From Pseudomaricurvus alkylphenolicus (GTDB lineage Bacteria; Pseudomonadota; Gammaproteobacteria; Pseudomonadales; Cellvibrionaceae), in NCBI RefSeq assembly GCF_011683955.1, contig NZ_JAAQPI010000028.1:1-64000 (forward strand): a DNA stretch of 64,000 nt, read 5' to 3'. The notes beneath the pieces were generated by a model, which searched no databases, was not told the DNA's origin, and worked only from the letters and a program-made list of their open reading frames with translations. Shown piece by piece: positions 10,161 through 52,448 of this stretch (its first letter is position 1; each line of letters begins with the position of its first letter). The position numbers were made by a program, and so were the translations under genes.

Positions 10161-10172
10161 GATTTATAAGGA

Positions 10173-10331: not shown

Positions 10332-10694
10332 CTAGAGAACCCCTACCAGCAGCCCTGATCTCCCCTGCTGCGGGTTATGCTGAACGTTCAACGGCGGAGC
10401 CAATACCCCAATCAGAGATCGCTCGTAGTAGTCCCTATCTGCCTGGCTACTCATGCCAACCGCGTGCACATGTGTAGCACCCATTCGCCGAGCCTCTTCC
10501 CACCTTGGATGATCAGCAAAGCGATCGCGGAAGTTCTGGGTTTGTCCCACATACAGCGAAAACCAAGGCGCCTGGCTGCCCGGCCTACAGAACATATAAA
10601 GACCCCCAAGCGGCTTCCAATCGCCACTCGGATTGTAGATGTCGAACGTTAAACTACCATCAGCCGAATACGGCCATTTGTATTGTCCTAACAT
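10332..10694 (-). CDS. GIY-YIG domain protein
   Basis: A 120-residue single-domain protein. The GIY-YIG signature appears as GGLYMF (about residues 29-34) and SLYVGQTQNFRDRF (about 46-59), followed by HPRWEEARRMGATHVHA, a glutamate in DYYERSLI and a terminal PPLN, the order seen in small phage and plasmid GIY-YIG nucleases. It is probably a DNA-cutting or DNA-binding protein. It is the first prophage gene inside attL, a common place for accessory or defence cargo. Its biological target is unknown. Confidence 0.75.
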   Translation of the reverse strand: MLGQYKWPYSADGSLTFDIYNPSGDWKPLGGLYMFCRPGSQAPWFSLYVGQTQNFRDRFADHPRWEEARRMGATHVHAVGMSSQADRDYYERSLIGVLAPPLNVQHNPQQGRSGLLVGVL

Positions 10695-10915
10695 GCTTCA
10701 GACCCCCATCGGTCAAAAATCACACAGACATTCTACGCCGCCACCTCTCACTGTACAACCATACACCACTGTATTTTTGTATAGCCTTTATGAGATAAGG
10801 ATTTTTGTGACATTTCCCGCCCCCTGAGTCATAATCGCCTCGCCTTGAGTAGCGTGACAACTGCACCAGGTCGGCCTGCAGATGGCCGCGATCGCGGAGC
10901 CGTGATGGCTCACGG

Positions 10916-10946
10916 AAAAAAGCCGCCCAGCTCGATGCCGGGCGGC
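10916..10946 (-). terminator. Rho-independent terminator
   Basis: Minus-strand hairpin GCCGCCC (10940-10946) with GGGCGGC (10922-10928) followed by TTTTTT. It ends transcription arriving from the 11050-11322 gene. The 10695-11049 stretch contains this terminator and no gene I can support. Confidence 0.8.
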
Positions 10947-11049
10947 CACGTGGAATACAAAACCGAAAGGGAATACCGTGGGGACGCTCCGCTCTGCGGC
11001 GTCTTGTCAACCGCCCCGGCACCAACTTTGGTGCCGCACTTCCCTATAC

Positions 11050-11322
11050 CTATATAGGAAGATCGTTTTCACAATCCTCCAGCAGGGCACTGTACGCCTC
11101 TGTCAGATTGTCGGACCCTACCCTACCAGTCAGCACGCTGACAGCCCCCTCTAGCCAACCAGCTCGATACGAGACCCCTGAACCGTACCTGAGGGCACCT
11201 CTCCCCCTGGCACTCAAACGCCGCATTTCTCCGGTCAGCTGATGCTTAACCACCAAGTAGACACCGTTGTCACGCAGCACCAACTCAAAGGCCAGCACAT
11301 TCCATTGCTCTGCTATATCCAT
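11050..11322 (-). CDS. hypothetical phage protein
   Basis: A 90-residue protein of unknown function. The N-terminal part reads as a small beta sheet (LAFELVLRDNGVYLVVKHQLTGEMRRL) and the C-terminal third is an acidic helix (LTEAYSALLEDCENDLP). It is followed by a strong terminator at 10916-10946, which supports expression as its own short unit. No family recognised. Confidence 0.5.
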   Translation of the reverse strand: MDIAEQWNVLAFELVLRDNGVYLVVKHQLTGEMRRLSARGRGALRYGSGVSYRAGWLEGAVSVLTGRVGSDNLTEAYSALLEDCENDLPI

Positions 11323-11408
11323 ACCTCATTCCCTCTGTATAGTCTTAAGAGGCAGTACCCCTTGAGACTTGATCCTTACAACCCCACTTTAGTGACACCC
11401 TAATTTTC

Positions 11409-11439
11409 TTGACATTAATAATTAGGCCGGGGATATAAA
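11409..11439 (+). promoter_or_regulatory. candidate sigma-70 promoter for the XRE-like gene
   Basis: TTGACA (11409-11414) and TATAAA (11434-11439) are separated by 19 bp, slightly long. Position and direction fit the plus-strand XRE-like frame that follows. Confidence 0.3.
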
Positions 11440-11722
11440 CAGATTTTGACGCCAAAGAAAAGGAGTAACCCATTGAAATATATGCAAATTTTCTGTATTA
11501 GAAATATCTGAAAGGTAATATTTCGAATATAGAAACATCACCAGGGGACGAGACGAGCAGGACGCACCCAAGAACGCGGAGAAGCGACCTCACCAGCGAC
11601 TGAAAGAAGCTCGCCAGGCGCGCTCGTGCACTCTCATTGAACTGAGCCAGAAGCTCAAAAGGGAATGGCTGGCCGGCAGACTACAGCTCAAACAAGCACC
11701 ACTGCCGGCAGCATTATCGAAG

Positions 11723-11935
11723 ATGGAGAATGGACACCAGGAAATACCATCCAGCCTGATGGCCTGCTGGGCCCCACTGGTGGGATTATCGTATAACGAG
11801 GTGTTTGGCTCACCGGAAGATAAAATTCCCTCCAGGCTCTCCAGAGCCTACAGAGACCTGCCACCAAGCTTTCGGGACGCCATTCTTCAGCACGTGGAGA
11901 AACTCCACCAGGTATGGAAAAACCTTAAAGACTGA
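11723..11935 (+). CDS. XRE-like helix-turn-helix protein, start unclear
   Basis: From the only ATG (11723) the product is 70 residues. The same frame is open back to 11519, and the upstream part (RLKEARQARSCTLIELSQKL) reads as the first helices of a lambda-repressor-like HTH, continuing into LSKMENGHQEIPSSL and LVGLSYNEVFG. No ATG, GTG or TTG lies in frame before 11723. Either a rare start (a CTG occurs at 11600) is used, or the gene has lost its start. It stands alone on the plus strand, tail-to-tail with the late operon. Confidence 0.5.
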   Translation: MENGHQEIPSSLMACWAPLVGLSYNEVFGSPEDKIPSRLSRAYRDLPPSFRDAILQHVEKLHQVWKNLKD

Positions 11936-11944
11936 GACGAGGAA

Positions 11945-12598
11945 TCAAGAAGCAGCAGGCCACCCGGCATTAACGTCAACGCCGTCAACCTCCTCTAGCG
12001 TGACCGCATTATCGAGAGCGACAAGCAACACTTTCTCATTCTTCTCAATCTGAGCGGCCACCGCCAGCCAAGCACCGGCCGTATTGAGCACAGACTGACC
12101 CACGCCTGCCAGATCGCTGGCCGTGATCCCCACCTCTGCAGCCAACAAGGGATAATCTGCCGCAGAGGGCGCCGCATCGGAAGCAAGTCGTTTGGCCTCC
12201 TCATGCTTGGCCGTGTAAACCATCGCCTTGCCATATCCCGGCGTGATGTATTTGAGACGCTCTTGCTCAGCCCTTTGAACTATCGTCTGCCGGATAGACA
12301 GGCGGCGATTGACAAGTTTTGCCGCATTAGCCTCTGCCTGACTCTGCTGTTCTTGCATCTGGTGAGCCAACTCCACGTCCAGCAGCTCCTGGTCGACGAC
12401 AGTCCAGCCACTGTCATAAGCCAGTGCCCTACCCGCCCACTGAGCCGGCGCCGGGCCAACGGCTATCTCATAATCGTCTGAGCTAATGTCACTGGCGCTA
12501 ACGCCAGGCCCCCTCAGCAACTCACCAAGCTCGACGACGTCATTATCCTCAAAGAGGTAGACCGCCACCTTGGTCTGCTTGTTGCGAACTATCTTCAT
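11945..12598 (-). CDS. tail-fibre-associated protein / possible fibre chaperone
   Basis: A 217-residue protein, last gene of the late operon. Residues 1-70 look like a compact alpha/beta domain. A long charged coiled-coil-like helix (about 72-115) precedes an Ala-rich helical C-terminus with the YTAKHEEAKRL and DYPLLAAEVG segments seen in C-terminal domains of phage tail proteins. The start overlaps the stop of the preceding propeller-like gene by 4 bases (ATGA), suggesting they work together. The role is inferred from position. Confidence 0.5.
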   Translation of the reverse strand: MKIVRNKQTKVAVYLFEDNDVVELGELLRGPGVSASDISSDDYEIAVGPAPAQWAGRALAYDSGWTVVDQELLDVELAHQMQEQQSQAEANAAKLVNRRLSIRQTIVQRAEQERLKYITPGYGKAMVYTAKHEEAKRLASDAAPSAADYPLLAAEVGITASDLAGVGQSVLNTAGAWLAVAAQIEKNEKVLLVALDNAVTLEEVDGVDVNAGWPAAS

Positions 12599-14439
12599 GC
12601 CGCGTTGGCCTCCGTAATCAGCAGATGGGTCGCCGAGAACGCCTTACCCACCTTTTCGCCGGTATTGGTCTGCGTCAGGTCACCATTGTCATCCACGTAG
12701 TAAGTCGCACCGACAACAAGACCGGTTTGATCAGGCGAAAATTCTCCAATGGTAGCCACCAGACACTCCTCGGTATCATTGGCCGCCTCCAAGGCAATGC
12801 CAAACCAGGTCGACTTATTCGAAGCCCCGGTCGAGTAGCGAACCGTCTCTCCGCCAGAGTTAGACGATATCCCAGTATTGACAATCATGTCTCCGGTGGA
12901 AGGATCATACGACACCGCGCGCGCTGAGATCGACGCACTGCGGAACGTATCGCTATTGTCATTATTGATGGTCGTGCCGGCAGAGAGACTCAGCAGCACC
13001 GCCGTCCCATAACCGGAATTGTTCTGATCACGATAAACCACCAGAAACTTATCCGCGATCGGATCATAGTCAATTGCCGCCGAATTGCCCCCACCAGAGT
13101 CAACCACAATGGCAGCCCCCGCATTCACAGAGGTACCATTGATTGTCATGGCGATGGCTTTCAAATCTGACGAGGTATTTTCTTTGTAAGTAATGACGTG
13201 CACATTATCGACGGTCGAGAAGGCACTGGAGAAAAACTGATTAATGCCATTAGCAAAGGTGTACTCTGAACCATAACTGGCGGAGGTACCGGAAATGGTG
13301 CCTACCATTGATCGCCCCTCATCGGTCTCAGCTTCATCCCGGTAAGCAACCAGAAACTTGCCAACAAAGGAATTGAAACTGAGGCAGATATCTTTCGTCG
13401 AACCAGTGCCGTTAAAGGTCTGAAGCGCCCCAAAACTCACACTGGTACCGGATATAGTCGCCACCTTGGAATCACCGGTCGTGGCATTCTCGTTCCAAGC
13501 CACCAGATGTGCCTTATTCACCGAATCGTATTCGCAGGCGATATCGCTCGCAACCCCAGTGGTAAACGTGGTTGCCGAACCAAAGGAAATAGAATCGTCA
13601 CCCGTGTCGACCGTGCCCACAATGCCTTTGCCATTATCGGTGTCACTGGTATCACGATACACCACCAAAACCTTACCAAGCTCTTCATCATAGGAGATGT
13701 CACTGGCATTATCCGTCGTCAGCCCGGACAAGATTAGGACCGGAGTGCCATAGACCGGCGTACCCCCACTGTTATTCAACACCACCGCATAGAGCCCGGT
13801 ACTGACCAAGACCTGCTGATACAGGATCACCGTTCGATCATTACCAGAGTCGTAAACCTGACGAACCGACTGAATACGCGACCCAGCATCCTGAGGAAAC
13901 GAAACCGGAGTCCCCGCGCCAATGGCCTTTGGTGCAATCTGGCTCACGGTACCGTCATCGTTCAAAGCAACCACCTTTCCAAGCGTGATCGAACCGCTGG
14001 CCGTACGAGCAGGCTTGGCCGAAACAAAACTGGTAATCGGAAACGCCACCGTCAAACTGACGGTCCAGGCCGCAAACGTTCCACTCCCCTCTGCCTTGCT
14101 TACTGTGACATCCAGCGCACCAGTGCCAGAGTTATAGTCGTCAACGGTTGCGATCATACGGTTGGTCGGCGTGGTCGTAAACGCGATCACCACCTCCATG
14201 CCCGGAACAAGTTGCTTTCCCGTCTCAACCGTCAATGACTTCGAACCGGTACCGACCGTGAGAGAGCTCGTGCTGGCCGCCGTCATGCCAGGCGCAGCCG
14301 CAGCGACATTCATGTCATCAATCGCTTGATTAACTTCTGGAATAAACTGAATCAACTCAGCTACCAATACGTCCATCTCAACCGGAAAGTTGTCAGGATC
14401 GGATCGGTGTGGGTTTGCCGTAAAGGGAGTGATAGCCAC
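12595..14439 (-). CDS. putative receptor-binding tail protein with beta-propeller repeats
   Basis: A 614-residue protein. Residues about 230-510 contain at least five repeats of roughly 45-55 residues built on D-x-x-x-[DN]-x-[AV]-x-[IL]-x-[WY]-[KR]-[DE], for example KVLVVYRDTSD, AHLVAWNENAT, KFLVAYRDEAE, VHVITYKENTS and KFLVVYRDQNN. These read as blades of a propeller, a common adhesin fold. The N-terminal 150 residues may attach to the tail. Genes on both sides overlap it by 1-4 bases. Host binding is an inference from position and fold. Confidence 0.6.
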   Translation of the reverse strand: MAITPFTANPHRSDPDNFPVEMDVLVAELIQFIPEVNQAIDDMNVAAAAPGMTAASTSSLTVGTGSKSLTVETGKQLVPGMEVVIAFTTTPTNRMIATVDDYNSGTGALDVTVSKAEGSGTFAAWTVSLTVAFPITSFVSAKPARTASGSITLGKVVALNDDGTVSQIAPKAIGAGTPVSFPQDAGSRIQSVRQVYDSGNDRTVILYQQVLVSTGLYAVVLNNSGGTPVYGTPVLILSGLTTDNASDISYDEELGKVLVVYRDTSDTDNGKGIVGTVDTGDDSISFGSATTFTTGVASDIACEYDSVNKAHLVAWNENATTGDSKVATISGTSVSFGALQTFNGTGSTKDICLSFNSFVGKFLVAYRDEAETDEGRSMVGTISGTSASYGSEYTFANGINQFFSSAFSTVDNVHVITYKENTSSDLKAIAMTINGTSVNAGAAIVVDSGGGNSAAIDYDPIADKFLVVYRDQNNSGYGTAVLLSLSAGTTINNDNSDTFRSASISARAVSYDPSTGDMIVNTGISSNSGGETVRYSTGASNKSTWFGIALEAANDTEECLVATIGEFSPDQTGLVVGATYYVDDNGDLTQTNTGEKVGKAFSATHLLITEANAA

Positions 14440-40262: not shown

Positions 40263-40952
40263 ATGGCAAAAGAAACTTACAGCGACCGCCTAAGAAGAGC
40301 CCTACAGGAGAGAGGCTTGGCACAGTCAGAGCTTGCAAGAAGGATCGACGTCAAACCCCAAGCCATTCAGTATCTGTGCTCCCCTAAGGCCCAAGGCTCA
40401 AGCCACAACGCTCGCATCTCTAACGTCTTGCAAATAAACCCGCAGTGGCTTGAGACCGGCGAGGGAAGTATGCACTTTTCTGACAACTCGAACCCAGACG
40501 CCCCAGATTCTCCATCAAGACCTGCGATCATCCCCGTACCAGTCTTCAGCTGGGATCAGGCCGACAAAGTTAACGAATCCAAACCCTCCGCTGAAACCTG
40601 GGTAGACCCGGAATACGCAACATATGAATCATTTGGACTGAAGATGCGCGGCGACAGCATGGCCGACAGCACCCTCCTTACAATCCCAAATGGAGCAATT
40701 ATTGTTGTTGACCCTAGAGAATCAGCAATCGAGAATGCAGTCACCTCACCTGACGCAGATGAAGGCACAAGAGTAGTAGTTAAATTAGGGGAAGACGTAG
40801 TATGCCGAACCATAAAGCGGGAGGCAGGAAAACTCTACCTAACCCCACGCAAGCAAACCTACGATAGCATCACATTCGATCCGCAAAAGCACCGAATTTT
40901 GGGTGTTGTCACCATTGCCGTGCTTTCAACGATCAGTCGCAACATCAAATAG
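40263..40952 (+). CDS. CI-like repressor with S24 peptidase domain
   Basis: A 229-residue lysogeny repressor. The N-terminal HTH is AQSELARRIDVKPQAIQYL (residues 20-38). The C-terminal LexA/S24 fold has Ser132 in MRGDSM and Lys174 in RVVVKLGED. At the usual cleavage position, where many phage repressors have SWVQAG, this one has SWDQAD (about 96-101), so self-cleavage may be altered. The 24-bp-spaced operators lie directly upstream. It keeps the prophage silent. Confidence 0.88.
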   Translation: MAKETYSDRLRRALQERGLAQSELARRIDVKPQAIQYLCSPKAQGSSHNARISNVLQINPQWLETGEGSMHFSDNSNPDAPDSPSRPAIIPVPVFSWDQADKVNESKPSAETWVDPEYATYESFGLKMRGDSMADSTLLTIPNGAIIVVDPRESAIENAVTSPDADEGTRVVVKLGEDVVCRTIKREAGKLYLTPRKQTYDSITFDPQKHRILGVVTIAVLSTISRNIK

Positions 40953-42332: not shown

Positions 42333-42890
42333 GTGGCCACTCAGCTCAGAATGACCCGTGCCGGCGACACAGGCTACCAACTTGGCAGCCTCATCGCCGA
42401 CGGCCTACCGAAACGCCAGGCCGAAGCCCTGCTCTACACCGGCAACGGGTTCACGGACCAGCAAGCTTCGGAGCTCATGAACTGCGCGCCAGCCACCGTT
42501 AAGCACTTGCGCAAAGAGGTCCACTTCAAATGTGGGTCCCACACTGGCCCCAGCCTAATCGTTAAATGCTTTGAAAACGGATTCCTTCGACTGGCCTGCA
42601 TCACACTGGCCTGGCTAATCGGCCTTGGCGCTATCACCACCCACTCAATGCCGGCAACCGCCAGTAACACCGAACAGCAAGAAGAGGAAGACGACAAGAT
42701 GCGATTCCGGAACCGATCGCGCCGCAACCCGAACACAGGCCGACGCCTTAACAACCGCGCGCGAGCTCGCACCCGGCAGAGCTTCACCATTTTTCGAATC
42801 CACCCCCCAGAGCTTGCCTGGGAGAACACCACAGGGACCCTGCTGTTAGAAGGGCAACCGCTTCACACCGCCACGGAGCACTCAGCATGA
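42333..42890 (+). CDS. LuxR-type HTH protein with membrane span
   Basis: A 185-residue protein starting at GTG 42333. Residues 27-62 form a LuxR-like HTH (AEALLYTGNGFTDQQASELMNCAPATVKHLR). A single hydrophobic span (about 83-100, LACITLAWLIGLGAITTH) follows, then a very basic stretch (MRFRNRSRRNPNTGRRLNNRARARTR). HTH plus membrane span suggests a membrane-linked regulator. It overlaps the next start by 4 bases. Confidence 0.55.
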   Translation: MATQLRMTRAGDTGYQLGSLIADGLPKRQAEALLYTGNGFTDQQASELMNCAPATVKHLRKEVHFKCGSHTGPSLIVKCFENGFLRLACITLAWLIGLGAITTHSMPATASNTEQQEEEDDKMRFRNRSRRNPNTGRRLNNRARARTRQSFTIFRIHPPELAWENTTGTLLLEGQPLHTATEHSA

Positions 42891-43476: not shown

Positions 43477-43956
43477 ATGAAAAAGAGACAACTGAACTTA
43501 CCCGCAGGACACCACGACGCAGACAGCGCCAGTGAACTACTGGGCATTTCAAAGGTGAAACTCCTGCAACACCTACGCGAAGCCGGCTTCCTGGACACCG
43601 ACAAAAAAAACGGCCTGCACGGCAACCACAATCTGCCACGCCAGCAGATCAAGGACATGCAGTGGGCATACGTCAAAACGCTCACCTACGGCTCCGGAGC
43701 CAACAAACAGATCAACCGGGAATACCGCATCGCAATATTCACCGAGAAGGGCTTCAAAGAGGTCAAGAAGATCATCGCCGATCCCGAAGGCTACGAAATG
43801 CCAAACTTTGCCAAGCCCAAACTGACACCACCTCCCAGCGACTGCACCGGACAATCACGCAGGATGGCCCGTGCAAAACTCGACTCAGCCTCACGCAAAG
43901 CCCTACTGGACCAAATGGCCGACTGGGGACTGAGCACCGATCAACCCGCACACTGA
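43477..43956 (+). CDS. antirepressor-like KilAC-type protein
   Basis: A 159-residue protein. Residues 12-95 (SASELLGISKVKLLQHLREAGFL ... NREYRIAIFTEKGFKEVKKII) match the C-terminal ANT/KilAC domain of phage antirepressors: HTH, Leu-rich helix, then a TEKG segment. There is no N-terminal Bro/KilA domain. Strong AGGAGG before the ATG. It could displace or bind the S24 repressor, which would fit a repressor without the usual cleavage site, but this is inference. Confidence 0.6.
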   Translation: MKKRQLNLPAGHHDADSASELLGISKVKLLQHLREAGFLDTDKKNGLHGNHNLPRQQIKDMQWAYVKTLTYGSGANKQINREYRIAIFTEKGFKEVKKIIADPEGYEMPNFAKPKLTPPPSDCTGQSRRMARAKLDSASRKALLDQMADWGLSTDQPAH

Positions 43957-43965: not shown

Positions 43966-45858
43966 ATGACCAGCGAAACCACTCAACAAATTGCGATCAA
44001 ACAGCTTTGCCCTTCGCAACTTAACCAGCGCAAGAGCCAGGCCACCAAAGCCGAAGACGATCAGCTGAAAGCCTCCATTAAGGCACACGGCATCAAGCAG
44101 AATCTGATCGTTTTCCCTGGCAAGAAAAAGGGCACCTTTGAGGTTGTCGCCGGCGGCCGTCGCTACGACACCCTCGCCAAACTGGTGAAAGAGAAGCACT
44201 TCAAAAGCACCGACACAGTACCCTGCCAGGTCGCCGCCTCCGAATCTGAGGCCATCGAGCTGTCGATTGTTGAAAACACCCACCGGGCAGCCATGCACCC
44301 GGCCGACGAATTCGAAGCCTACCAGGCACTGCAACGCACTGGCGCCACCATCAAGGCAATCGCCGAACGATTTGGCGTCACTCAAAAGCACGTACGCCAG
44401 CGCCTGAAATTGGCCGGAGCTGCACCCGAGATCATCCAAGCTTATCGGGATAAAAAACTAGACCTGGACGCCGTGAAAGCGTTCACCGTAGAAGAAAGTC
44501 ACGAGAAGCAGGTCGAAGTCCTGGAGTACTTTACCAATGACAACTTTGCCCCCGACGCCCACCACATCCGCCAACGCCTAACACTGGAGAGCATCCGAAG
44601 CAATGACGGCATTGCTAGATTTATCGATATGCGCCGGTACAAAAAACTTGGCGGCACCGTCAGCTCCGACCTGTTTGGCGACGTCAGCTATTTAAATCAA
44701 CCCGAGCTTGTGCACCAACTGGCGATCGAAAAGCTTGAGCAACTGGCTGAGGAGATCGCCGACGGCTGGCTCTGGCACGAAACGCACATCAAGCTTCCGG
44801 AGCACAACTACGTAGCCAACATGGCCCCGATCACCGGCACGCCAAAACCCGAACTGACTGCCGAGCGCCAAAAGCTGGACGAAGAATTCCTGGAACTTGA
44901 GGAGCGCTGGGAAGATCTCAGCGACCAAGAACAGCAGCACATGGAGGAGCTCGAAGCCAAGGTATACCAGCTGGATGAGCAAATCGAACGAGAGCTTATG
45001 TTCAAACCCGAAGAGATGGCACTGGCTGGCTTTATCGTTACGCTGAGCCGGAATGGCGAACCTGAATTCCACATGGGCCGCGTTCGCACCCCAGAGCGTC
45101 AAGCACTGAAAGCACTCCAGACCGGTACCGACAACGGCGAAGAGAGCACCGACAACACCGAATTCAGCCCCCCTACCGAGACCGCGACCGAAGAGCTCAA
45201 CGAGTATTCCAAGGCCCTGGTTAGCGATCTCGGAGAAACACGCCGCACGATCGCACAGGCGCACCTAGCTCGCCACCCGGTACTGGCCGCCGACCTACTG
45301 CACTACACCCTCTGCTACAACGTACTAGGCCCGCAGTGGTGGAGCCAACCCATCAGCCTGTCGACCACACAAACCTTTAATGCTGACCAGCACCCCACCG
45401 TTGCGGAGAGTGACGCCGTGGAGCACCTACAGAACGTTGCCGGCACCATGATGGAGTGGATCCACATCGATGGCGACGCAGAGCGATTTCGCGCCTTTCA
45501 AGCCATGGACGCGGATGTCAAAGCCGATATGGTCGCCTACTGCACCGCCACCCTGCTCAACGTCTCCCTGGTTAACAAAAGCGGCAGCGACATCACCGAA
45601 GAGGTGATCAGTCAAATGGAAATCGACTGGCACCAAACCTGGAGCCCAACCAAGAAGAATTTCCTCGAGCGCGTTGGCAAACCCATCCTGATCGATTTGG
45701 GCAAACAGTTCCTGCCCGCCGAATGGGAAGCGGAGGCCGAAAAACGTAAGAAGGGCGACCTGGCTGAGGAGCTAGAGAACGTATTCAACGGCAACGATGA
45801 TCGCCTGAGCGAGGAACAGGCCCAAGCCGCTGCGCAGTGGATGCCGCCAGGATTTTAG
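43966..45858 (+). CDS. ParB/Spo0J-family protein, long form
   Basis: A 630-residue protein. The N-terminal ParB/sulfiredoxin-like CTPase domain has VVAGGRRYDTL (about residues 61-71) and IELSIVENTHRAAMHPADEFEAYQAL (about 98-122), followed by a KorB-like HTH (TIKAIAERFGVTQKHVRQRL). The last 400 residues are acidic and helical, as in long ParB proteins of integrative elements. No ParA is encoded here, so a role in gene control or DNA loading is as likely as partition. Largest gene of the right arm. Confidence 0.82.
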   Translation: MTSETTQQIAIKQLCPSQLNQRKSQATKAEDDQLKASIKAHGIKQNLIVFPGKKKGTFEVVAGGRRYDTLAKLVKEKHFKSTDTVPCQVAASESEAIELSIVENTHRAAMHPADEFEAYQALQRTGATIKAIAERFGVTQKHVRQRLKLAGAAPEIIQAYRDKKLDLDAVKAFTVEESHEKQVEVLEYFTNDNFAPDAHHIRQRLTLESIRSNDGIARFIDMRRYKKLGGTVSSDLFGDVSYLNQPELVHQLAIEKLEQLAEEIADGWLWHETHIKLPEHNYVANMAPITGTPKPELTAERQKLDEEFLELEERWEDLSDQEQQHMEELEAKVYQLDEQIERELMFKPEEMALAGFIVTLSRNGEPEFHMGRVRTPERQALKALQTGTDNGEESTDNTEFSPPTETATEELNEYSKALVSDLGETRRTIAQAHLARHPVLAADLLHYTLCYNVLGPQWWSQPISLSTTQTFNADQHPTVAESDAVEHLQNVAGTMMEWIHIDGDAERFRAFQAMDADVKADMVAYCTATLLNVSLVNKSGSDITEEVISQMEIDWHQTWSPTKKNFLERVGKPILIDLGKQFLPAEWEAEAEKRKKGDLAEELENVFNGNDDRLSEEQAQAAAQWMPPGF

Positions 45859-45934
45859 AGCGCACCACGGGCATTGAGCATCATCCCTCAATGCCCACCA
45901 GTCAACCAGAACACCCAACAGCAGGAGCTACAAC

Positions 45935-46090
45935 ATGAGTGCAAAAAGAGGAGCACCCTTCGTCATCAATCGCCCTTACGGCCAGCACGACAGCAATAAA
46001 AAGTCTGCCGTTACCAAGGGCATTGACCCCAAGAAACGCCACCAGGTGGAAGAGCACCAGCGTCGTATACGCGATAAATGGTTTGACTAA
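45935..46090 (+). CDS. 51-residue basic protein
   Basis: A small gene with AGGAG 7 bases before the ATG at 45935. The product MSAKRGAPFVINRPYGQHDSN... is basic (KKRHQVEEHQRRIRDKW) and could bind nucleic acid. Its codons and Shine-Dalgarno are better than those of the longer overlapping frame that begins at 45939. No family recognised. Confidence 0.55.
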   Translation: MSAKRGAPFVINRPYGQHDSNKKSAVTKGIDPKKRHQVEEHQRRIRDKWFD

Positions 46091-46124
46091 AATCCAATCG
46101 CATCACCCAACGGGAGCACTCAAC

Positions 46125-46616
46125 TTGAAGAAGTCGTTATTGGAAAACCTGGAGAAGCAAAAAATCAAAGATCTCTATGATGCCTTGCTTGCCACCTGCC
46201 TAGAGGAAAATACTCAACCGCATACAGGCATCATGCACTTACTTAATTTTGGGATCATTTCTGAGGAGACGGCCAACACTCTTCGCACCGTGTTTTCCGA
46301 AGCAAAGGATGCGCACCGCTGGCTTGCAGGACAGATCACCATTTTAGTCGACGAACTGGAAGACTCCTCACCGTTTGTTGTCTGCCACAGATCAAACAAA
46401 GGTGCCCACTCGATACTGGAAGCCGGGAAAATTAGCAATCCGGAAGAGCTGAGAGCAATGCAGGAGAGATATAAGGGATGCAAGGTCCAGATCGATTGCG
46501 CCTTTATGGGCACAGACATGCAGTACGCCGCCCAACACTACCACTGGAAACTTGTTAAATTCCGGAAAGATGATTTCCCATTCATCGAGGCGATGACTCA
46601 ACTAGGTTCAATCTGA
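46125..46616 (+). CDS. hypothetical phage protein, TTG start
   Basis: A 163-residue protein starting at TTG 46125 with GGGAG 8 bases ahead; the frame is open further upstream but overlaps the 51-residue gene. It is helical and charged (MKKSLLENLEKQKIKDLYDALL). The middle has the DELEDSSPFVVCHRSNKGAHS segment. No family recognised. It precedes a row of genes whose leaders carry TGTAC. Confidence 0.55.
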   Translation: MKKSLLENLEKQKIKDLYDALLATCLEENTQPHTGIMHLLNFGIISEETANTLRTVFSEAKDAHRWLAGQITILVDELEDSSPFVVCHRSNKGAHSILEAGKISNPEELRAMQERYKGCKVQIDCAFMGTDMQYAAQHYHWKLVKFRKDDFPFIEAMTQLGSI

Positions 46617-46656
46617 ACCAAAGCACGAAGAGGAAGAATTGTACGAGGTTTCCTTT

Positions 46657-46908
46657 ATGGATCAGGCAACACAAACACAGATTTGCGATGACTGTAGAAG
46701 GCCATTTAGTCCTACCGGGTCACTCTGGAGCAATCTTTGCGTTGAGTGCTTGACGCCCAAAAAGCCATCGGAGCACCACACTCGCTGCCATGACTGCGGG
46801 CATTTTGTAAGCAAGGATCTTTGGGTTCGTAAGGGCCACCCGACCTATGAGCACGCCTTGTGTCGGGATTGCCTCAGCAACTATGACGACCCTTACGCGA
46901 ATTATTGA
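46657..46908 (+). CDS. small protein with two zinc-ribbon-like CxxC pairs
   Basis: An 83-residue protein. It has CDDC (about residues 10-13), a second pair LCVEC, then CHDC and LCRDC, giving four CxxC knuckles and probably two zinc sites. A start at 46657 uses GAGGT in the TGTACGAGGTT leader, with 7 bases spacing; a TTG at 46639 is in frame but lies in the leader motif. Likely a nucleic-acid or protein adaptor. No family recognised. Confidence 0.55.
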   Translation: MDQATQTQICDDCRRPFSPTGSLWSNLCVECLTPKKPSEHHTRCHDCGHFVSKDLWVRKGHPTYEHALCRDCLSNYDDPYANY

Positions 46909-46932
46909 GTCGAAATGTACGAGGTTCACGCT

Positions 46933-47136
46933 ATGGAGATACCGGAGACAGTAGAGGAACTGGACCAGCTTTACGCAGACATAGAGCGGCGTGATCTGGC
47001 TAGATTTCCTTACGAGGTTTATCACCCCGAAGGTGGTGGACCGCCACCGAAATTCCGCTCTTGGGCTGACGCGTTGGCGGCGCAAAAAGAATGGAACAGA
47101 GAGGTTTCCGGGCATATCGCCCGTAAGCGTAAGTAA
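46933..47136 (+). CDS. hypothetical small protein
   Basis: A 67-residue protein (MEIPETVEELDQLYADIERRD ...). It has an acidic N-terminal helix, a Pro/Gly-rich middle (PEGGGPPPKFRSW) and a basic C-terminus. The start at 46933 matches the leader of the previous gene (GAGGT 7 bases ahead); the ATG at 46915 lies in the leader motif. Unknown function. Confidence 0.5.
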   Translation: MEIPETVEELDQLYADIERRDLARFPYEVYHPEGGGPPPKFRSWADALAAQKEWNREVSGHIARKRK

Positions 47137-47160
47137 CGATCATATACCTGGAGAACATAA

Positions 47161-47373
47161 ATGAAAGGCAAGAAGTTCTTTTACTGGCTAGGAATCCTGC
47201 ACTCAAGGGTTGGCCCTCAGATTGACACCCGCCGCTTGGCTTCGTGGGCGGAAACTGCTTACACATGCGGGCTGATTGACGGGAAGGTGTGCGCGTTCAA
47301 TTCTCGCCATAAAGGATCAGCCAAGCCCGACCACATTCCCGCTCGGCAGCGTAAAAAACTGGCTATGGCGTAA
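47161..47373 (+). CDS. hypothetical small basic protein
   Basis: A 70-residue basic protein (MKGKKFFYWLGILHSRVGPQ ...) with Cys36 and Cys44. GGAG precedes the ATG. The leader (ATATACCTGGAG) looks like a weakened version of the TGTAC leader. No family recognised. Confidence 0.5.
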   Translation: MKGKKFFYWLGILHSRVGPQIDTRRLASWAETAYTCGLIDGKVCAFNSRHKGSAKPDHIPARQRKKLAMA

Positions 47374-47397
47374 TCCTGTACCGGGAGTGAATTATAG

Positions 47398-47610
47398 ATG
47401 GACCCTGTTGCGGTATTTCTGATGGTCGGTTTCATGGCGTTTGTTGCTGTCGCCTTGTGGATTTGGTCAATCATTTTGGGCGGGAGGCTGGAGGATGCAA
47501 ACCTAGAAATTAGCCACCTGAAAAAACAGAATAATGAGCTTTGGGAAGTCTACGATCACGACTGCTGGTGCAAGGGTTTAGAGTTTCGCCCCGAAGCTGA
47601 AACTAAATAA
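47398..47610 (+). CDS. small membrane protein with coiled-coil tail
   Basis: A 70-residue protein with an N-terminal membrane span (about 4-27, VAVFLMVGFMAFVAVALWIWSI), a heptad-like helix (LEDANLEISHLKKQNNELW) and an HDCWC segment. GGGAG within the TGTACC leader precedes the ATG. Single-span small proteins of this sort may act on the host envelope. Unknown function. Confidence 0.5.
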   Translation: MDPVAVFLMVGFMAFVAVALWIWSIILGGRLEDANLEISHLKKQNNELWEVYDHDCWCKGLEFRPEAETK

Positions 47611-47632
47611 TGTACAACTAAAGGAAAACAAC

Positions 47633-48262
47633 ATGAACAAGTGCAATGAAGAAAGATTTCTGAAGGATGTAGAAAATCACACAATGGACGTTCTTCAGGA
47701 TGATGAGAATATGCGCCACCTAATCTTCACTGAAAACGGGTCGTCATTTTATCGTTTTGACCTGATCACCTGGCCGGGCTATCTGTGCATCACTGGTGAC
47801 TGCGGCACTTATGTTTTTCGGCGCCTGTTAGACATGTTCGATTTCTTCCGTAGCAAAGACGGTGAGCTGAACATTAACCCTGGATACTGGGGTGAAAAGC
47901 TTGAGTCAATCGACACCCATGGTGGCTTTGAAAAGTATGAGAGCGATGTTTTTGATCGCACCATCAAAGAGGACTTTGACGAATGGGAGTTCGAAGAGGA
48001 CACAGACAAAGGGCTGTCAGCAGAGGAAGTAAAGGCAGCCGTTTGGAAGCAGATCAAGTCGGAAGTTCTCTACTGGTCTGAAGATGGCGAGCATCCAGCC
48101 AGGCAGGCAGCTTCTTCATTCAAATCTGACTATGGGCATGAGTTCGTCGACTTTTGGGAGCGCGACTTGACCGAATACACCTTCCGCTTCATTTGGTGCC
48201 TCCGTGCGATTGTCTGGGGTATTCAGAAGTACGACACCAGAAAATTGGATAAGGCCCCCTAG
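47633..48262 (+). CDS. conserved phage hypothetical protein
   Basis: A 209-residue acidic protein. The segment FYRFDLITWPGYLCITGDCGTYVFRRLLDMFDFFR (given here in two parts: FYRFDLITWPGYLCITGDCG and TYVFRRLLDMFDFFR) is one I recognise as conserved among many unrelated phages in early regions, without known function. The C-terminus is Trp/Phe-rich. AAGGA precedes the ATG, and the leader starts with TGTACAAC right after the previous stop codon. Confidence 0.65.
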   Translation: MNKCNEERFLKDVENHTMDVLQDDENMRHLIFTENGSSFYRFDLITWPGYLCITGDCGTYVFRRLLDMFDFFRSKDGELNINPGYWGEKLESIDTHGGFEKYESDVFDRTIKEDFDEWEFEEDTDKGLSAEEVKAAVWKQIKSEVLYWSEDGEHPARQAASSFKSDYGHEFVDFWERDLTEYTFRFIWCLRAIVWGIQKYDTRKLDKAP

Positions 48263-48281
48263 TTCGCGGTCCTGTACCAGT

Positions 48282-48367
48282 GGCGTAGTTATAAAGGCGT
48301 CCTCCCAATTGGAGACAAGGGTCCGTCCCTCTCACCGATCTGGCCAGGGCGTCTCTATAACTACGTC
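48282..48367 (+). ncRNA. candidate structured RNA, cloverleaf-like inverted repeat
   Basis: The outer 10-bp arms CGTAGTTATA (48284-48293) and TATAACTACG (48356-48365) are perfectly complementary, extending by two more pairs with a wobble. Inside are small hairpins CTCC-CAATT-GGAG, AGGG-TCCGT-CCCT and CTGG/CCAG. The 136-bp spacer between stop 48262 and the next ATG is unusually long for this arm. No known RNA family is recognised, and an anticodon arm is not credible. Confidence 0.4.
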
Positions 48368-48398
48368 TAACAAGCGGAAAATGAGTGGTAAAAGGAAT

Positions 48399-48818
48399 AT
48401 GGAATATCAATCAAATGCACTGTGGCCAAGAGGCGTATGCAGCAGTCCTTACGGCGACAACATCAGCACCGACAAGCATCAATCTGAAGCAGCGGCGGAT
48501 GCGGTATGCAATGCGCTAAAGCAGGAAGGTTTTGGCGGCCAGCGCCAAGATTTCCCGCTGATGACTTGGGTTTCACCAGTTGAGCAGCCGCCGATGCCGC
48601 CAAAGAATGAGGCCGTTTATGAGGCTGTTGGCGAGTCAATTCGAAACGCGACATACAATGGCATCGAGTTCGAGGGCTGGACATACCGAGAGATAGCCGA
48701 TGACATGGTTTCGTTGTGCCAGCCTCTGGAGGACTGGGACCCTCAAATTGTAGAGATGGAGATTCGCCGCTGGTTTGCGACGGATAAATCGCAAGGCTAT
48801 AAGCCAGTGTTTTGCTGA
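48399..48818 (+). CDS. hypothetical phage protein
   Basis: A 139-residue protein from the ATG at 48399 (AAAAGG ahead). The N-terminal segment LWPRGVCSSPYGDNISTDKH followed by EAAADAVCNALKQEGFGG is typical of small phage early proteins. The C-terminus is acidic and helical. An ATG at 48381 in the same frame lies inside a leader shared with the 49440 gene. No function. Confidence 0.55.
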   Translation: MEYQSNALWPRGVCSSPYGDNISTDKHQSEAAADAVCNALKQEGFGGQRQDFPLMTWVSPVEQPPMPPKNEAVYEAVGESIRNATYNGIEFEGWTYREIADDMVSLCQPLEDWDPQIVEMEIRRWFATDKSQGYKPVFC

Positions 48819-48843
48819 TCTGTACGACTTTGGAGCAATAGAA

Positions 48844-49002
48844 ATGACTCAAGAAGAAGCGAAGCGGGAGTTAGAGCTGCTCCGAGAAATGGCTATCGAA
48901 GCCACCAAAGATTTGGGCGGCATTGAGGATCAGGACCACTCCGCTTTCCAAGAGGTGGCAACCCCGAAGCTGATAATCGAGATTGCGGACGCTCTGTTGT
49001 AG
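48844..49002 (+). CDS. 52-residue acidic helical protein
   Basis: A small protein MTQEEAKRELELLREMAIEATKD... that is helical throughout. The ATG at 48844 is preceded by GGAG in the TGTACGACTTTGGAG leader. Unknown function. Confidence 0.5.
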   Translation: MTQEEAKRELELLREMAIEATKDLGGIEDQDHSAFQEVATPKLIIEIADALL

Positions 49003-49030
49003 AGCGGTCTTGTACGACTTTGGAGAAACA

Positions 49031-49414
49031 ATGAAAGCACTATCGATCAGGCAGCCCTGGGCATGGTTAATACTCCATGCTGGCAAGGACATTGAGAATC
49101 GCACCTGGCACACGAACTACACCGGGCCTCTGCTGATTCATGCCTCCAAAGGTTGCACCCAGCGCGAGTACTTCGAGGCGGCTGCGTTTGCCAAACTGGC
49201 ACTGGATGACAGTCTGAGACCTCTCACACTGCCTCCACTGAAAGAGCTGCCACGGGGCGCGATAGTCGGTCAGGTAGAAATGGTAGATTGCAGCCGGGTG
49301 ACCGGCTCACCCTGGCACATGAAGGACCAGTGGGGATTCGAACTTGAGAACCCGGTACCGATGGAGCCGATCCCGTACAAGGGCCAGCTGGGATTCTTTG
49401 AAGTGATCCTATAA
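49031..49414 (+). CDS. ASCH-domain protein
   Basis: A 127-residue protein starting MKALSIRQPWAWLILHAGKD, with ENRTWHTNYTGPLLIHASK and later GAIVGQVEMVDC and a terminal GQLGFFEV. This is the ASCH pattern (PUA-like fold). ASCH proteins bind RNA, and some act on modified nucleosides (N4-acetylcytidine amidohydrolase family). The ATG follows TGTACGACTTTGGAG by 8 bases. Exact substrate unknown. Confidence 0.82.
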   Translation: MKALSIRQPWAWLILHAGKDIENRTWHTNYTGPLLIHASKGCTQREYFEAAAFAKLALDDSLRPLTLPPLKELPRGAIVGQVEMVDCSRVTGSPWHMKDQWGFELENPVPMEPIPYKGQLGFFEVIL

Positions 49415-49439
49415 AGCGGAAATGAGTGGTAAAAGAAAT

Positions 49440-49673
49440 ATGAAATACCTTCTCAAGAAAAACGGATATTGGTACCGCCCCAAGTTTTGTGGATATACCA
49501 GCAACCTACATGAGGCCGGAATTTACAGCGAAGATGAGATTGCTGACTACCGGACAGAAAGGAATTGTGAAACCAGGATTGTACCCTGCTCTGAGGTGGT
49601 TGCGGATCTGGAGCTGACTATCGCTCAGTGCACCGAGAGGCTGGAGCAATTTAAGGCCGCTATCGAGCGGTAA
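49440..49673 (+). CDS. hypothetical small protein
   Basis: A 77-residue protein (MKYLLKKNGYWYRPKFCGYTSNLHEAGIYSEDEIADYR ... abridged) whose first part reads like the beta hairpin common in small phage proteins that begin with Tyr/Trp-rich strands and an 'AGIYSEDEA' segment. The C-terminal helix is EQFKAAIER. Its leader duplicates that of the 48399 gene. Function unknown. Confidence 0.55.
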   Translation: MKYLLKKNGYWYRPKFCGYTSNLHEAGIYSEDEIADYRTERNCETRIVPCSEVVADLELTIAQCTERLEQFKAAIER

Positions 49674-49753
49674 TGTACAAATCACTCTATAGATTAGAGT
49701 CCTATATGGACAAAAATATTAACACTTCAGTGAAACACCAGGAGAAAACATGA
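49673..49753 (+). CDS. 26-codon leader frame, doubtful
   Basis: ATG 49673 overlaps the previous stop (TAATG), begins with the TGTAC motif and ends TGA at 49751-49753, overlapping the next ATG. A coupled leader peptide is possible. No Shine-Dalgarno is visible before it. Confidence 0.2.
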   Translation: MYKSLYRLESYMDKNINTSVKHQEKT

Positions 49754-50361
49754 ACACAATCCAACTCATTCAGCCAGATGAAGACACCAAGAATGCGAAT
49801 AATGAAATTCGACGACACTTAACCTTTTGCCGCTGGGAAGACGCGAAAAGCCTATCCCACCAACAGTTATCGAAGCTACACAAGAAAATTTCCTGTGGAG
49901 GAAAACCGACCAAAGCAATTAAATCCGCGATCGGACACTTCACCTACTACGTCTGTATATGCCACTATTTTCGGTCTTACCATAACACTCGACTCATTAG
50001 CTTTAACGCATACATGCCCCTTTGGGCCGACAGCCTAAGCCAAACATCTCTGAGCCAATCCATACCATTTTTCACTGAAAGCTACGGAGAATATTTTGGT
50101 AACTCATATGGAAACTATATTTTAAAGGCAGGCACAACGGATTGCTGGGAAAAGTTTCCGGAAGAAAAAAGAGAGCCACTGTATACCCGCGCCATGAGCA
50201 TGGAAAATACAGCATTTAAGCTCAAAGAGTTACTTCACCAATCTGATACTCCATTTGACTCACACCCAATCCTGGAAGCTGCAGAGGAGCTCCTCAGAGC
50301 GAAAAGAAAAATCGATGAACTTGAAGCAGAACTCGAGCCCCATCAAACAAAGCAAGGCTGA
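49750..50361 (+). CDS. hypothetical phage protein
   Basis: A 203-residue protein. It is helical with many His, Tyr and Trp residues (FTYYVCICHYFRSYHNTRL), and the last 30 residues are a probable coiled coil (LLRAKRKIDELEAELEPH). CAGGAG precedes the ATG. No family recognised. Confidence 0.5.
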   Translation: MNTIQLIQPDEDTKNANNEIRRHLTFCRWEDAKSLSHQQLSKLHKKISCGGKPTKAIKSAIGHFTYYVCICHYFRSYHNTRLISFNAYMPLWADSLSQTSLSQSIPFFTESYGEYFGNSYGNYILKAGTTDCWEKFPEEKREPLYTRAMSMENTAFKLKELLHQSDTPFDSHPILEAAEELLRAKRKIDELEAELEPHQTKQG

Positions 50362-50368
50362 CAATGTC

Positions 50369-50695
50369 ATGTATACGTACTCAGCAACTGTAACCGGTGT
50401 ATATGACGGTGATACGGTTACCGTTGATATTGATTTGGGACTGGGAGTTTGGCTTAGAGGTCAGAAAATTCGACTCTTCGGAATTAACGCTCCAGAGGTT
50501 AGAGGCAAATCAAGATCGGCCGGAATCGATGCCCGCGACTGGCTAAGGTCGGAAATACTGGGGCAGTCAGTCGTTTTGAATACCATTAAAGATAAGACCG
50601 GAAAATACGGGCGATGGTTAGCTGTAGTCAGGAAGAACGGCGTCAGCATCAATGACAAGCTCGTGTCCACCGGCCACGCAACTCCCTACAACTGA
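50369..50695 (+). CDS. thermonuclease (staphylococcal nuclease-like)
   Basis: A 108-residue single SNase domain. VYDGDTVTVDIDLGLG holds the metal-binding Asp, KIRLFGINAPEVRG gives the first catalytic Arg and the Glu, and KYGRWLAVV the second Arg, all in the family order. No signal peptide is present, so it acts in the cytoplasm, perhaps on host DNA or invading DNA. The ATG at 50369 is chosen because the upstream frame lies inside the preceding gene. Confidence 0.85.
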   Translation: MYTYSATVTGVYDGDTVTVDIDLGLGVWLRGQKIRLFGINAPEVRGKSRSAGIDARDWLRSEILGQSVVLNTIKDKTGKYGRWLAVVRKNGVSINDKLVSTGHATPYN

Positions 50696-50728
50696 TTGAA
50701 CCTTGAACCCAGACAGTTAATTTAGAAG

Positions 50729-50998
50729 ATGCTTAAGCTGATCACTGCCCAACAATGGATTCGCGAAGTCTTCCCCGAGGGAGGGGTTGGCCCTCGCACC
50801 GTCGAAAAGTGGATCCGAACCAAGGTGATCCACGGCAGAATCATTGGAGGCAAACTGTTTGTGGATCCAGACAGAACTGCTGTGCTACTCGAGTCAAACA
50901 CCGAAATTGAGGCAGATGACGCCACCGATCCCGAGCCTCCAGAACCCACACCCCAGGACGACTTTCAGGCGCTGCTAGACAAAGCCAGGGCCGCCTAA
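50729..50998 (+). CDS. excisionase (Xis-like)
   Basis: An 89-residue protein. A MerR-like winged helix occupies residues 1-48 (LITAQQWIREVFPEGGVGPRTVEKWIR, then HGRIIGGKLFVD), as in Xis proteins, and the acidic tail is disordered. It lies 62 bp upstream of the integrase and should bend attR/attL during excision. The layout Xis-Int-att is standard. Confidence 0.72.
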   Translation: MLKLITAQQWIREVFPEGGVGPRTVEKWIRTKVIHGRIIGGKLFVDPDRTAVLLESNTEIEADDATDPEPPEPTPQDDFQALLDKARAA

Positions 50999-51060
50999 GT
51001 TGACTAAAAAACACTCAGTCATCTATGATCAACAGGATGGACTAAAATCGAGATACCAAC

Positions 51061-52284
51061 ATGGGCACCAAGAAAAGGGTTTTTGAAGGCCAGGAACTGC
51101 CTGAAAACCTCTACCAGCATCAACGCAAAATCGCTAACCGCTGGCGATACAAAAAGGCCAACGGCACTTTTTTCCACTTTGAAGCGCCTACAGACCAAGC
51201 GATCGCACTGGCCACACAGCTCAACCTGGAGCGGTCAAACCCTGAATTACCCACCCCCCAAGCCAGGGCGCAAAAGGCAGCCCGCACGAGCTTTGAACGC
51301 CACGTTGAGGACTTCATTGGAGAGCGAGAATCAAGGGATCCGTATCTTGCACGGAAAGCCAGCTGGCGAGACAGGAAGGGATATCTCAGGCGATTATCAA
51401 AGGATTTTGCGCACACGAGCGTCACCCAGGTCACACTGCTCGACATGCAGAAATACTGGGACAAATTCACAGGAAACGCCCAGCGAGCCAGACGTGCCGA
51501 ATTCAAGCGATTTTTTAACCATCTGATTACGCGAGAGCTGTGCCCTAAACTAAAGGCTAACCCCTTTTCTACCGACGACAGCAAGCCCCAGGTAGCCATG
51601 CGGGCTCGCGCCGGCAAAAGGCGCCTGAGGCTTTCCATTGAGCAGTTCTGGAGCATCTACCATCATGCCGGCAACAAAGGTTGGCATTTCCTACAGACGG
51701 CCATGGGCATATCTCTGGTCACCACCATGCGCCGCGGGGATATCTGCGACCTGCGCTTCGATGAACACGTAGCCAGCAACTATCTCCGGAAGCAGATCAA
51801 CAAAAGCCATGCTCAGCTGAGCCAGGCGGAGTTTCGAGCCGACCCTAGCAACCTGAGCTGGAACCTGGATGAGCAACCGATCCTGCGCAAACTGATCAAT
51901 GACGCTCGAGAGACAAGCCTAAAGCACGCACGGTGCCCCTACATCATTCACTTCAGACCAAAAAGAAAGATCAAGGGCGATAGCCGGAAACACGCCAACC
52001 AGGTACTACCCGATTACCTCACCCGAGCTTTTGCTGAAACGCGAGACGAATGCGGCGACTTCAATAGTGTTTCTCCTAGCGCCCGACCCAGCTTCCACGA
52101 AATCAGAGCCCTTGGCAGTCATCTATTCAATAAAGCTTTTGGAGAGGAGCGCCGAAAGGACGTTCAGCTACTGATGGCACACACAGACGAGAAGATCACC
52201 AGGCATTACCAGCAGGGTCACGAGACCCACTGGACAGAGGTCGAACTGTCACTACCAACTGAGATCCTGAAGGGGCAATTTTGA
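51061..52284 (+). CDS. tyrosine-recombinase integrase
   Basis: A 407-residue phage integrase. An arm-binding N-terminal domain (residues 10-60) with a YKKANGTFFHF strand is followed by a SAM-like core-binding domain (75-175) and a catalytic domain with Arg near 224-225 (TTMRRGDICDLRF), His346-x-x-Arg349 (FHEIRALGSHLF), His374 (LMAHTD) and the nucleophile Tyr383 (RHYQQGH). It inserts the phage into the tRNA-Pro 3' end. Its stop is 82 bp from attR. Confidence 0.95.
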   Translation: MGTKKRVFEGQELPENLYQHQRKIANRWRYKKANGTFFHFEAPTDQAIALATQLNLERSNPELPTPQARAQKAARTSFERHVEDFIGERESRDPYLARKASWRDRKGYLRRLSKDFAHTSVTQVTLLDMQKYWDKFTGNAQRARRAEFKRFFNHLITRELCPKLKANPFSTDDSKPQVAMRARAGKRRLRLSIEQFWSIYHHAGNKGWHFLQTAMGISLVTTMRRGDICDLRFDEHVASNYLRKQINKSHAQLSQAEFRADPSNLSWNLDEQPILRKLINDARETSLKHARCPYIIHFRPKRKIKGDSRKHANQVLPDYLTRAFAETRDECGDFNSVSPSARPSFHEIRALGSHLFNKAFGEERRKDVQLLMAHTDEKITRHYQQGHETHWTEVELSLPTEILKGQF

Positions 52285-52286
52285 GT

Positions 52287-52327
52287 TTTGTCCACCTGCG
52301 CCAAAAGCTTTGTCCACTTTTGTCCAG
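52287..52327 (+). repeat. three TTTGTCCA repeats, candidate integrase arm sites
   Basis: TTTGTCCAC at 52287-52295 and 52309-52317, and TTTGTCCAG at 52319-52327, all in the same direction between the integrase stop and attR. Short direct repeats at this spot are typical arm-type Int sites. Confidence 0.5.
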
Positions 52328-52365: not shown

Positions 52366-52416
52366 AAAATATGGTCGGAGTGGCCGGATTTGAACCGACG
52401 ACCACCACACCCCCAG
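52366..52416. other. attR
   Basis: 51 bp identical to 10173-10223. It covers the tRNA-Pro 3' half from the anticodon loop through CCA and a few bases beyond, so the tRNA stays intact after integration. Confidence 0.92.
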
Positions 52417-52448
52417 TATGGTGCGCTACCAGGCTGCGCTACACTCCG
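52372..52448 (-). tRNA. tRNA-Pro (GGG anticodon)
   Basis: 77 bases including encoded CCA. The acceptor stem CGGAGTG/CACTCCG is perfect, the anticodon loop CTGGGGG puts GGG at 34-36, and the T arm is GTCGG-TTCGAAT-CCGGC. The 3' half is shared with attL. It is the prophage integration site and the last gene of the pheST-ihfA-MerR stretch. Confidence 0.95.

Follow-up and report, generated by a model that had tools for sequence, protein, structure and literature searches.

Oriented TGTAC copies at the gene junctions of a Pseudomaricurvus alkylphenolicus prophage: a possible counterpart of actinophage start-associated sequences

A run of nine small genes in a prophage of Pseudomaricurvus alkylphenolicus carries, at eight of its ten junctions, the word TGTAC, always oriented with transcription, placed shortly past a stop codon and, in most cases, immediately 5' of the next gene's Shine-Dalgarno sequence. 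The prophage lies within the 64,000 nucleotides analyzed here (contig NZ_JAAQPI010000028.1, positions 1-64,000, of assembly GCF_011683955.1; termed here the window), and the run occupies positions 46657-49673, upstream of genes for an excisionase-like and an integrase-like protein. The same arrangement recurs in a metagenomic phage. The reading preferred here, at a probability of roughly 0.45, is that these copies represent one oriented cis element (termed here the tag) per junction of a run of accessory genes, working in the manner of the start-associated sequences of actinophages.

Placement of TGTAC in the array

Sense-strand TGTAC occurs in 8 of the 10 gaps between positions 46617 and 49749, where its overall frequency in the window would predict 0.17. 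Gaps were counted on a gene list of the window that had been partly corrected by hand. No 5-mer reached eight gaps in 2000 dinucleotide-preserving shuffles of the array gaps, the maximum being six. Elsewhere in the window TGTAC is found in 2 of 53 same-strand gaps of 1-200 bp, one of those two being in the prophage, and over the whole window it is not enriched (57 copies on both strands versus 61.1 expected). All eight array copies point with transcription; a ninth plus-strand copy, at 49580, is inside an open reading frame (ORF).

A sequence-only reading had placed eight copies 0-23 bp past stop codons and ahead of the next Shine-Dalgarno sequence, with longer leaders common to pairs of genes. 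The distances from the stop are indeed 23, 7, 3, 0, 10, 2, 8 and 0 bp, and the paired leaders are exact: TGTACGAGGTT at 46640 and 46916 (and nowhere else in the 8.9-Mb genome), and TGTACGACTTTGGAG at 48821 and 49011. The position ahead of a Shine-Dalgarno sequence holds for six copies, which lie 17-23 bp from the ATG, and fails for those at 48273 and 49674, which lie beside the stop with the next ATG 126 and 76 bp on. The array consists of the following features, all on the plus strand:

46640-46644: TGTAC site 1, leader TGTACGAGGTT; stop 23 bp before, ATG 17 bp after
46657-46908: array gene 1, 83 amino acids (aa), cysteine-rich; zinc-ribbon-like, under the Pfam cut-off
46916-46920: TGTAC site 2, leader TGTACGAGGTT; 7 bp past the stop
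46933-47136: array gene 2, 67 aa; no family found
47137-47160: gap without TGTAC, with TATAC in its place; carries TATACCTGGAG, near TGTACCGGGAG
47161-47373: array gene 3, 70 aa; no family found
47377-47381: TGTAC site 3; 3 bp past the stop
47398-47610: array gene 4, 70 aa; no clear family found
47611-47615: TGTAC site 4; 0 bp past the stop
47633-48262: array gene 5, 209 aa; phrog_4657 (unknown function), with homologues in 85 phage records
48273-48277: TGTAC site 5; 10 bp past the stop, next ATG 126 bp on
48280-48370: long hairpin in the same gap as site 5
48399-48818: array gene 6, 139 aa; no clear family found
48821-48825: TGTAC site 6, leader TGTACGACTTTGGAG; 2 bp past the stop
48844-49002: array gene 7, 52 aa; no family found
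49011-49015: TGTAC site 7, leader TGTACGACTTTGGAG; 8 bp past the stop
49031-49414: array gene 8, 127 aa; ASCH domain, phrog_3193
49415-49439: gap without TGTAC; 28-bp leader in common with 48379-48406 (93%)
49440-49673: array gene 9, 77 aa; weak phrog_7674 match
49674-49678: TGTAC site 8; 0 bp past the stop, next ATG 76 bp on

Clear wider families were found for two array genes only, those for the phrog_4657 and ASCH-domain proteins; gene 6 found only its own copy in IMG/VR. Most array gaps are 22-40 bp long. The one of 136 nt, which holds the hairpin, folds at -53 kcal/mol (z -5.25); the hairpin occurs once in the genome and reached no gathering score in Rfam. A second common leader, AAATGAGTGGTAAAAGRAATATG, which lacks TGTAC, occurs at 48379-48406 and 49420-49447, with both copies in frame with an upstream ATG.

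An extended motif and its recurrence in another phage

The recurrence is seen in the metagenomic phage IMGVR_UViG_3300001265_000006 (locus L309), which was found by searching for the leader pattern and of which a longer stretch (L421) was also analyzed. L309 carries TGTACGAGGTT-N6-ATGGA twice; four more TGTAC copies, which the search did not select, lie in other gaps, giving a total of 6 of 9 gaps (0.2-0.3 expected). In L421 the count is 6 of 12 gaps (0.31 expected), and one more junction has TGTGC, so that seven consecutive junctions (3698-5924) all bear the tag or its variant. When 17 kb of this record were compared with the window by blastp, no protein had a convincing match (best E 0.009 over 29 aa). 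Within the L421 array, positions 4428-4652 encode a stand-alone 74-aa FtsK gamma-domain protein. A locus with one gene in common with L309 (L422) has the tag in 0 of 6 gaps, and in Enterobacter and Pantoea phages with that gene the genes mostly touch.

A further prophage in the host genus (L479), with an integrase 35% and a sigma-like protein 29% identical to those of the window, has TTAACTGTAC, ATAACTGTAC and CCAACTGTAC at three consecutive junctions, shortly ahead of its integrase. From the background rate in the integrase-related and host-genus sets described below, chance alone is estimated to give such a series of three in about 3% of surveys of this kind; hence L479 probably, rather than certainly, bears the tag too. 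(A minus-strand TGTAC gap near the left end of L479 is outside its array, whose first gap, of 166 bp, exceeds the limit of the automatic count.) Directly before this array, at L479:10783-10881, a hydrophobic peptide of 32 aa is predicted (MYWIFGFFTG...), its start codon overlapping a TGTAC.

Aligning 18 sites from the window, L309/L421 and L479 on TGTAC (TGTGC in one) extends the tag upstream to approximately yTR-N8-WAm-TGTAC, of about 19-20 bp: position -13 is T in 15 sites, -12 is a purine in 17, -3 is A or T in all 18, and -2 is A in 12. The set leaves out L479:10784, the start codon of the 32-aa ORF just mentioned, which was in a first alignment, and adds the TGTGC variant at L421:4409. 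In 15 of the 18 sites the tag is 16-25 bp ahead of the start codon. A 14-bp upstream model built from L309 ranks the window sites above controls matched for distance from the stop (P 0.003); a window-built model applied in turn to L309 does likewise (P 0.0002). Because the upstream part often overlaps the end of the preceding gene, in differing reading frames, the motif is an element of the DNA or RNA rather than of the protein. From -50 to -15 no other column is strongly conserved. Over both strands of the window, the motif model scores the eight array sites at 13.5-20.1, which, since the model was built from these sites, is no independent test; a place outside the array, 8485 on the minus strand, scores 12.6. 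A scan of all loci examined gave three scattered motif hits at 11 or above in each of L400, L353, L341, L320 and L060.

Two suggestions about the form of the element were set aside. One was a small hairpin presenting TGTAC: in a 25-nt stretch, 7 of the 18 sites fold at 0 kcal/mol. Anchoring to the stop codon was suggested by a low fractional position in the gap (P 1e-5 over all 18 sites and, where the gap is at least 30 bp long, P 0.02 over 8 gaps), which vanishes once 11 nt are kept free for the ribosome site (P 0.22).

What the element may do

The genes behind the tags are unrelated: blastp found no match between genes at E<=0.01 among 22 array and neighboring proteins from the window, from L309 and from L479, and the leader is therefore not a by-product of gene duplication. 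Nor does it follow gene families. TGTAC lies within 70 bp upstream of 0 of 26 phrog_4657 homologues (1.1 expected) and of 2 of 79 ASCH homologues (2.7 expected; the best 80 of 488, minus the prophage's own copy), so that array genes bear a leader of this phage rather than of their families. Neither sigma-70-like promoters nor terminators were found in 46500-49800 (3.1 and 3.5, respectively, in shuffles), which fits a single read-through operon.

According to the preferred reading, the array genes would be read from a common early transcript, in which the element, located after one gene's stop and usually just 5' of the next Shine-Dalgarno sequence, would mark, and probably tune or couple, the expression of each small gene; a factor encoded by the phage or by its host would read it. 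A role in expression is preferred because the copies share one orientation, mostly lie 16-25 bp ahead of a start codon and have a leader that does not follow gene families. The sequence-only reading had named common translational control and recombination of gene units as possible roles, and either may apply.

The ASCH homologues also bear on whether the leaders are instead coding, with NTG-TAC as an upstream start codon followed by tyrosine, in frame with the next gene. This frame is open to the downstream ATG in 4 of the 8 window copies (two identical pairs), but the other four are out of frame or stopped; moreover, 75 of the 79 homologues align from residue 1 of the reading that begins at 49031, so that the leader there is very likely not coding. 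Coding leaders are thus scarcely credible. Another explanation is neutral descent, in which leaders copied during past duplications would have no function now; it draws on the paired leaders and on how little else is common beyond the core. Because core and upstream preference recur in L309, in spite of its lack of convincing protein matches to the window, neutral descent is considered improbable.

The prophage, of about 42 kb, is bounded by a 51-bp perfect direct repeat at a tRNA-Pro gene; 3' of the array there follow, in order, a 203-aa gene, a nuclease-like gene, the excisionase-like gene and the tyrosine-integrase-like gene. Its other features are:

10173-10223: attL (left attachment repeat), a 51-bp perfect direct repeat with 52366-52416
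40263-40952: repressor gene, phrog_4
42333-42890: sigma-region-4-like protein, phrog_3282
43477-43956: protein with a weak antirepressor match
43966-45858: ParB-like protein
46125-46616, plus strand: 163-aa gene directly ahead of the array; partial homologue among the small genes of locus L297
50729-50998, plus strand: excisionase-like gene, phrog_629
51061-52284, plus strand: tyrosine-integrase-like gene, 407 aa, just under the Pfam cut-off
52366-52416: attR (right attachment repeat), overlapping the tRNA-Pro gene at 52372-52448 (minus strand)

The sigma-region-4-like protein, together with its 29% identical counterpart in L479, raises the question of whether the individual sites are promoter elements recognized by an alternative or phage sigma factor. 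This is improbable: there is no second conserved box from -50 to -15 and no sigma-70-like promoter in 46500-49800, and transcripts starting just past TGTAC would have almost no leader ahead of the Shine-Dalgarno sequence. The repressor gene, in turn, recalls stoperators, that is, asymmetric sites at which a phage repressor halts transcription in the prophage state. Stoperators of the mycobacteriophage L5 type have an oriented, intergenic layout, and the sites described here, in what would be an early operon, are likewise one-way and intergenic, and the phage is temperate and has a repressor. However, around that gene (39.8-42.1 kb, both strands) the best motif score is 6.2, versus 13.5-20.1 for the eight sites, all of which lie within one 3-kb run; stoperators therefore seem an improbable explanation.

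Other explanations concern the exchange of genes. Locus L297 (G158:C1:3887000-3906000) occupies the same chromosomal place as the prophage (flanking genes 63-90% identical) and has a 36% identical integrase, ahead of which, at about 9200-12700, are small genes with TGTTAT repeated in 5 of 13 gaps; one L297 gene is homologous to part of 46125-46616 of the window (48% identity over 90 aa). By eye, these TGTTAT gaps resemble integron attC sites; a strict RYYYAAC/GTTRRRY search of L297 found one pair, elsewhere in the locus. Tags might be joints that allow small accessory genes to be swapped, acquired or dropped as whole units, through annealing recombination of the phage or through a site-specific step. 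Consistent with this, the genes flanking tags are unrelated and mostly without families; neighboring pairs have identical leaders, as if units had been copied; the array sits in an accessory slot ahead of the integrase, a region that L297 fills with small genes split by another repeat; the L309 array lies behind a RecT-like annealing gene; and the two long-gap copies are at or near a stop, like the ends of units. Against this, the core common to all sites is only 5 bp, less than ordinary homologous recombination needs; the collections searched, which gave no close relative of this phage, yielded no pair of relatives whose content changes at the tag; and the tag does not travel with ASCH or phrog_4657 genes. 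A role as joints is unlikely on balance, though it is kept in mind because of the two stop-hugging copies, the genes without families and the accessory slot. A more specific version, to which little credence is given, is a cassette-like gene-capture system of phages marked by TGTAC, in which arrays in the slot before the integrase would expand and contract by units, each consisting of one small gene plus its 3' junction element; the array would then be a non-integron counterpart of the L297 small-gene array.

Several observations weigh against the element-per-junction reading preferred here. First, among loci related through shared genes, TGTAC is found in gaps at about the rate expected: 23 versus 18.9 in 754 gaps of 121 distant-relative loci (a few of them overlapping), 9 versus 6.8 in 190 gaps of 19 integrase-related loci (L297 included), and 10 versus 15.8 in 414 gaps of 43 host-genus stretches (3 next to L479; the other 40 surround integrases, for which 64 places were listed). 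The sequence-only reading had named a lack of enrichment at the gene junctions of related phages as evidence against itself; such a lack is seen in these relatives, but not in L309 nor, less surely, in L479. Second, when the word is not chosen beforehand, some 5-mer occurs in 6 gaps in 6 of 500 shuffles of the L421 gaps, and the upstream test on L479 is weak (P 0.07 and 0.04). Third, the plus-strand place at 35485, antisense to the genes there, scores 14.8 and is the sole one outside the array within the score range of the array sites. Finally, within the array the tag is absent from two of ten junctions (47137-47160 and 49415-49439); its spacing from the Shine-Dalgarno sequence varies; its position after stops needs no special cause once room for the ribosome site is kept (P 0.22); and the copies at 48273 and 49674, which hug a stop far from the next ATG, are ill-suited to a pure initiation leader.

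Pattern searches, known systems and other junction leaders

Megablast of 44000-52300 against the phage collection gave no close relative, nor did a comparison of the array DNA with 57 other genomes; L027 is this same prophage (100%). The exact 15-mer TGTACGACTTTGGAG occurs in 27 viral stretches, none of which, among the matches listed, has more than two TGTAC gaps except the prophage itself, and in at least 116 genome stretches, which revealed no further array and were covered by the motif scan of examined loci only. Allowing two mismatches, TGTACGACTTTGGAG has 8 matches in its own genome, versus 17 for the reversed pattern. TGTACGAGGTT-N6-ATG was found in at least 120 viral stretches (25 for a stricter version with a leading A, including the prophage and L309) and in 6 of 369 genomes of the class, the prophage's own included, the same number as for the reversed pattern; among the matches listed, only the window and L309 have the leader inside a TGTAC-rich array. 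In six genomes of the genus, TGTAC-N7-GGAG-N3-9-ATG gave 11 matches versus 14 when reversed. Proteins of L309 and L479 had no match in 390 genomes of the order, which is weak evidence since no genome with a known match was shown to be among them. A literature search found no paper on TGTAC as a phage intergenic motif, and it is from such searches only that the motif is taken not to be in print.

The likeness to actinophage start-associated sequences (SAS/ESAS) that the sequence-only reading drew stands in layout and falls in sequence. In Cluster K mycobacteriophages these are short asymmetric repeats of undetermined function, nearly always in one orientation, which lie just upstream of starts in genes of different families and are rare in host genomes; the SAS is the 13-bp GGGATAGGAGCCC, which has a purine-rich, ribosome-site-like part, abuts the start codon and is common to related phages, and for which a role in expression is considered but unproven (PMC3203893). 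Like the SAS, TGTAC is short, asymmetric, one-way (8 of 8) and located between the stop and start of unrelated small genes. Unlike the SAS, its conserved part consists of the core plus 14 bp upstream and lies 5' of the Shine-Dalgarno sequence, at variable spacing and sometimes far from the start; and the window leaders (TGTACGAGGTT, TGTACGACTTTGGAG and others), read by eye with no pattern search made, contain no GGGATAGGAGCCC within two deviations. The T1-like phages, TLS among them, have 21-base intergenic repeats that the authors liken to stoperators and describe as of unknown function; in contrast to TGTAC, their consensus aaATAGCACnnnTTGnTAAAA, which has no sequence likeness to it, lies about 76 bases upstream of starts and genome-wide (PMC11447400). 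Cluster A mycobacteriophage stoperators are asymmetric, repressor-bound sites across the phage genome, whereas this prophage has no motif site near its repressor gene.

The mobile regulatory cassettes of T4-like phages (PeSL), which Arbiol in 2010 and Comeau in 2014 are said to have described, are reportedly promoter-terminator composites between small genes, with a proposed role in module shuffling; the TGTAC array differs in that neither promoter nor terminator was found in it. In integrons, the repeated site that ends each small gene of an array, attC, is long and folded, whereas most TGTAC gaps are 22-40 bp and the hairpin is a single copy in one 136-bp gap. A RYYYAAC...GTTRRRY search of 42.0-52.5 kb gave two pairs rather than one per array gene, though this search is insensitive, having missed most of the attC-like L297 gaps. 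Cassette arrays with attC do occur in phages (PMC9892861).

Repeated leaders of other sequence were sought as well. The locus IMGVR_UViG_3300024581_004294 (L154), reached via phrog_4657, has CGGAAAC in 6 of 12 gaps, a count equalled in 0 of 500 shuffles; at about 6100-8100 its leader, approximately CGGAAAC..GGGAG, lies 5' of the Shine-Dalgarno sequence of several small genes, beside the phrog_4657 gene. L154 was found by 7-mers; in an 80-locus panel of 6-mers, L246 and L297 stood out (at or below 1 of 100). As a control, the known element of phage TM4 was recovered weakly (TAGGAGC in 5 of 27 gaps, equalled in 9 of 200 shuffles). The scan is therefore low-powered, and absence of a leader elsewhere is weak evidence that does not establish rarity.

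Oriented repeats at phage gene junctions have thus been described before, in the SAS and in TLS, with their function left open; the element described here differs in sequence and has the short core TGTAC. It adds to those cases a prophage, probably another one from the host genus, and a phage without a convincing protein match to the first. Together with the L154 leader, it opens to test the idea that phage-specific junction leaders form a general class.

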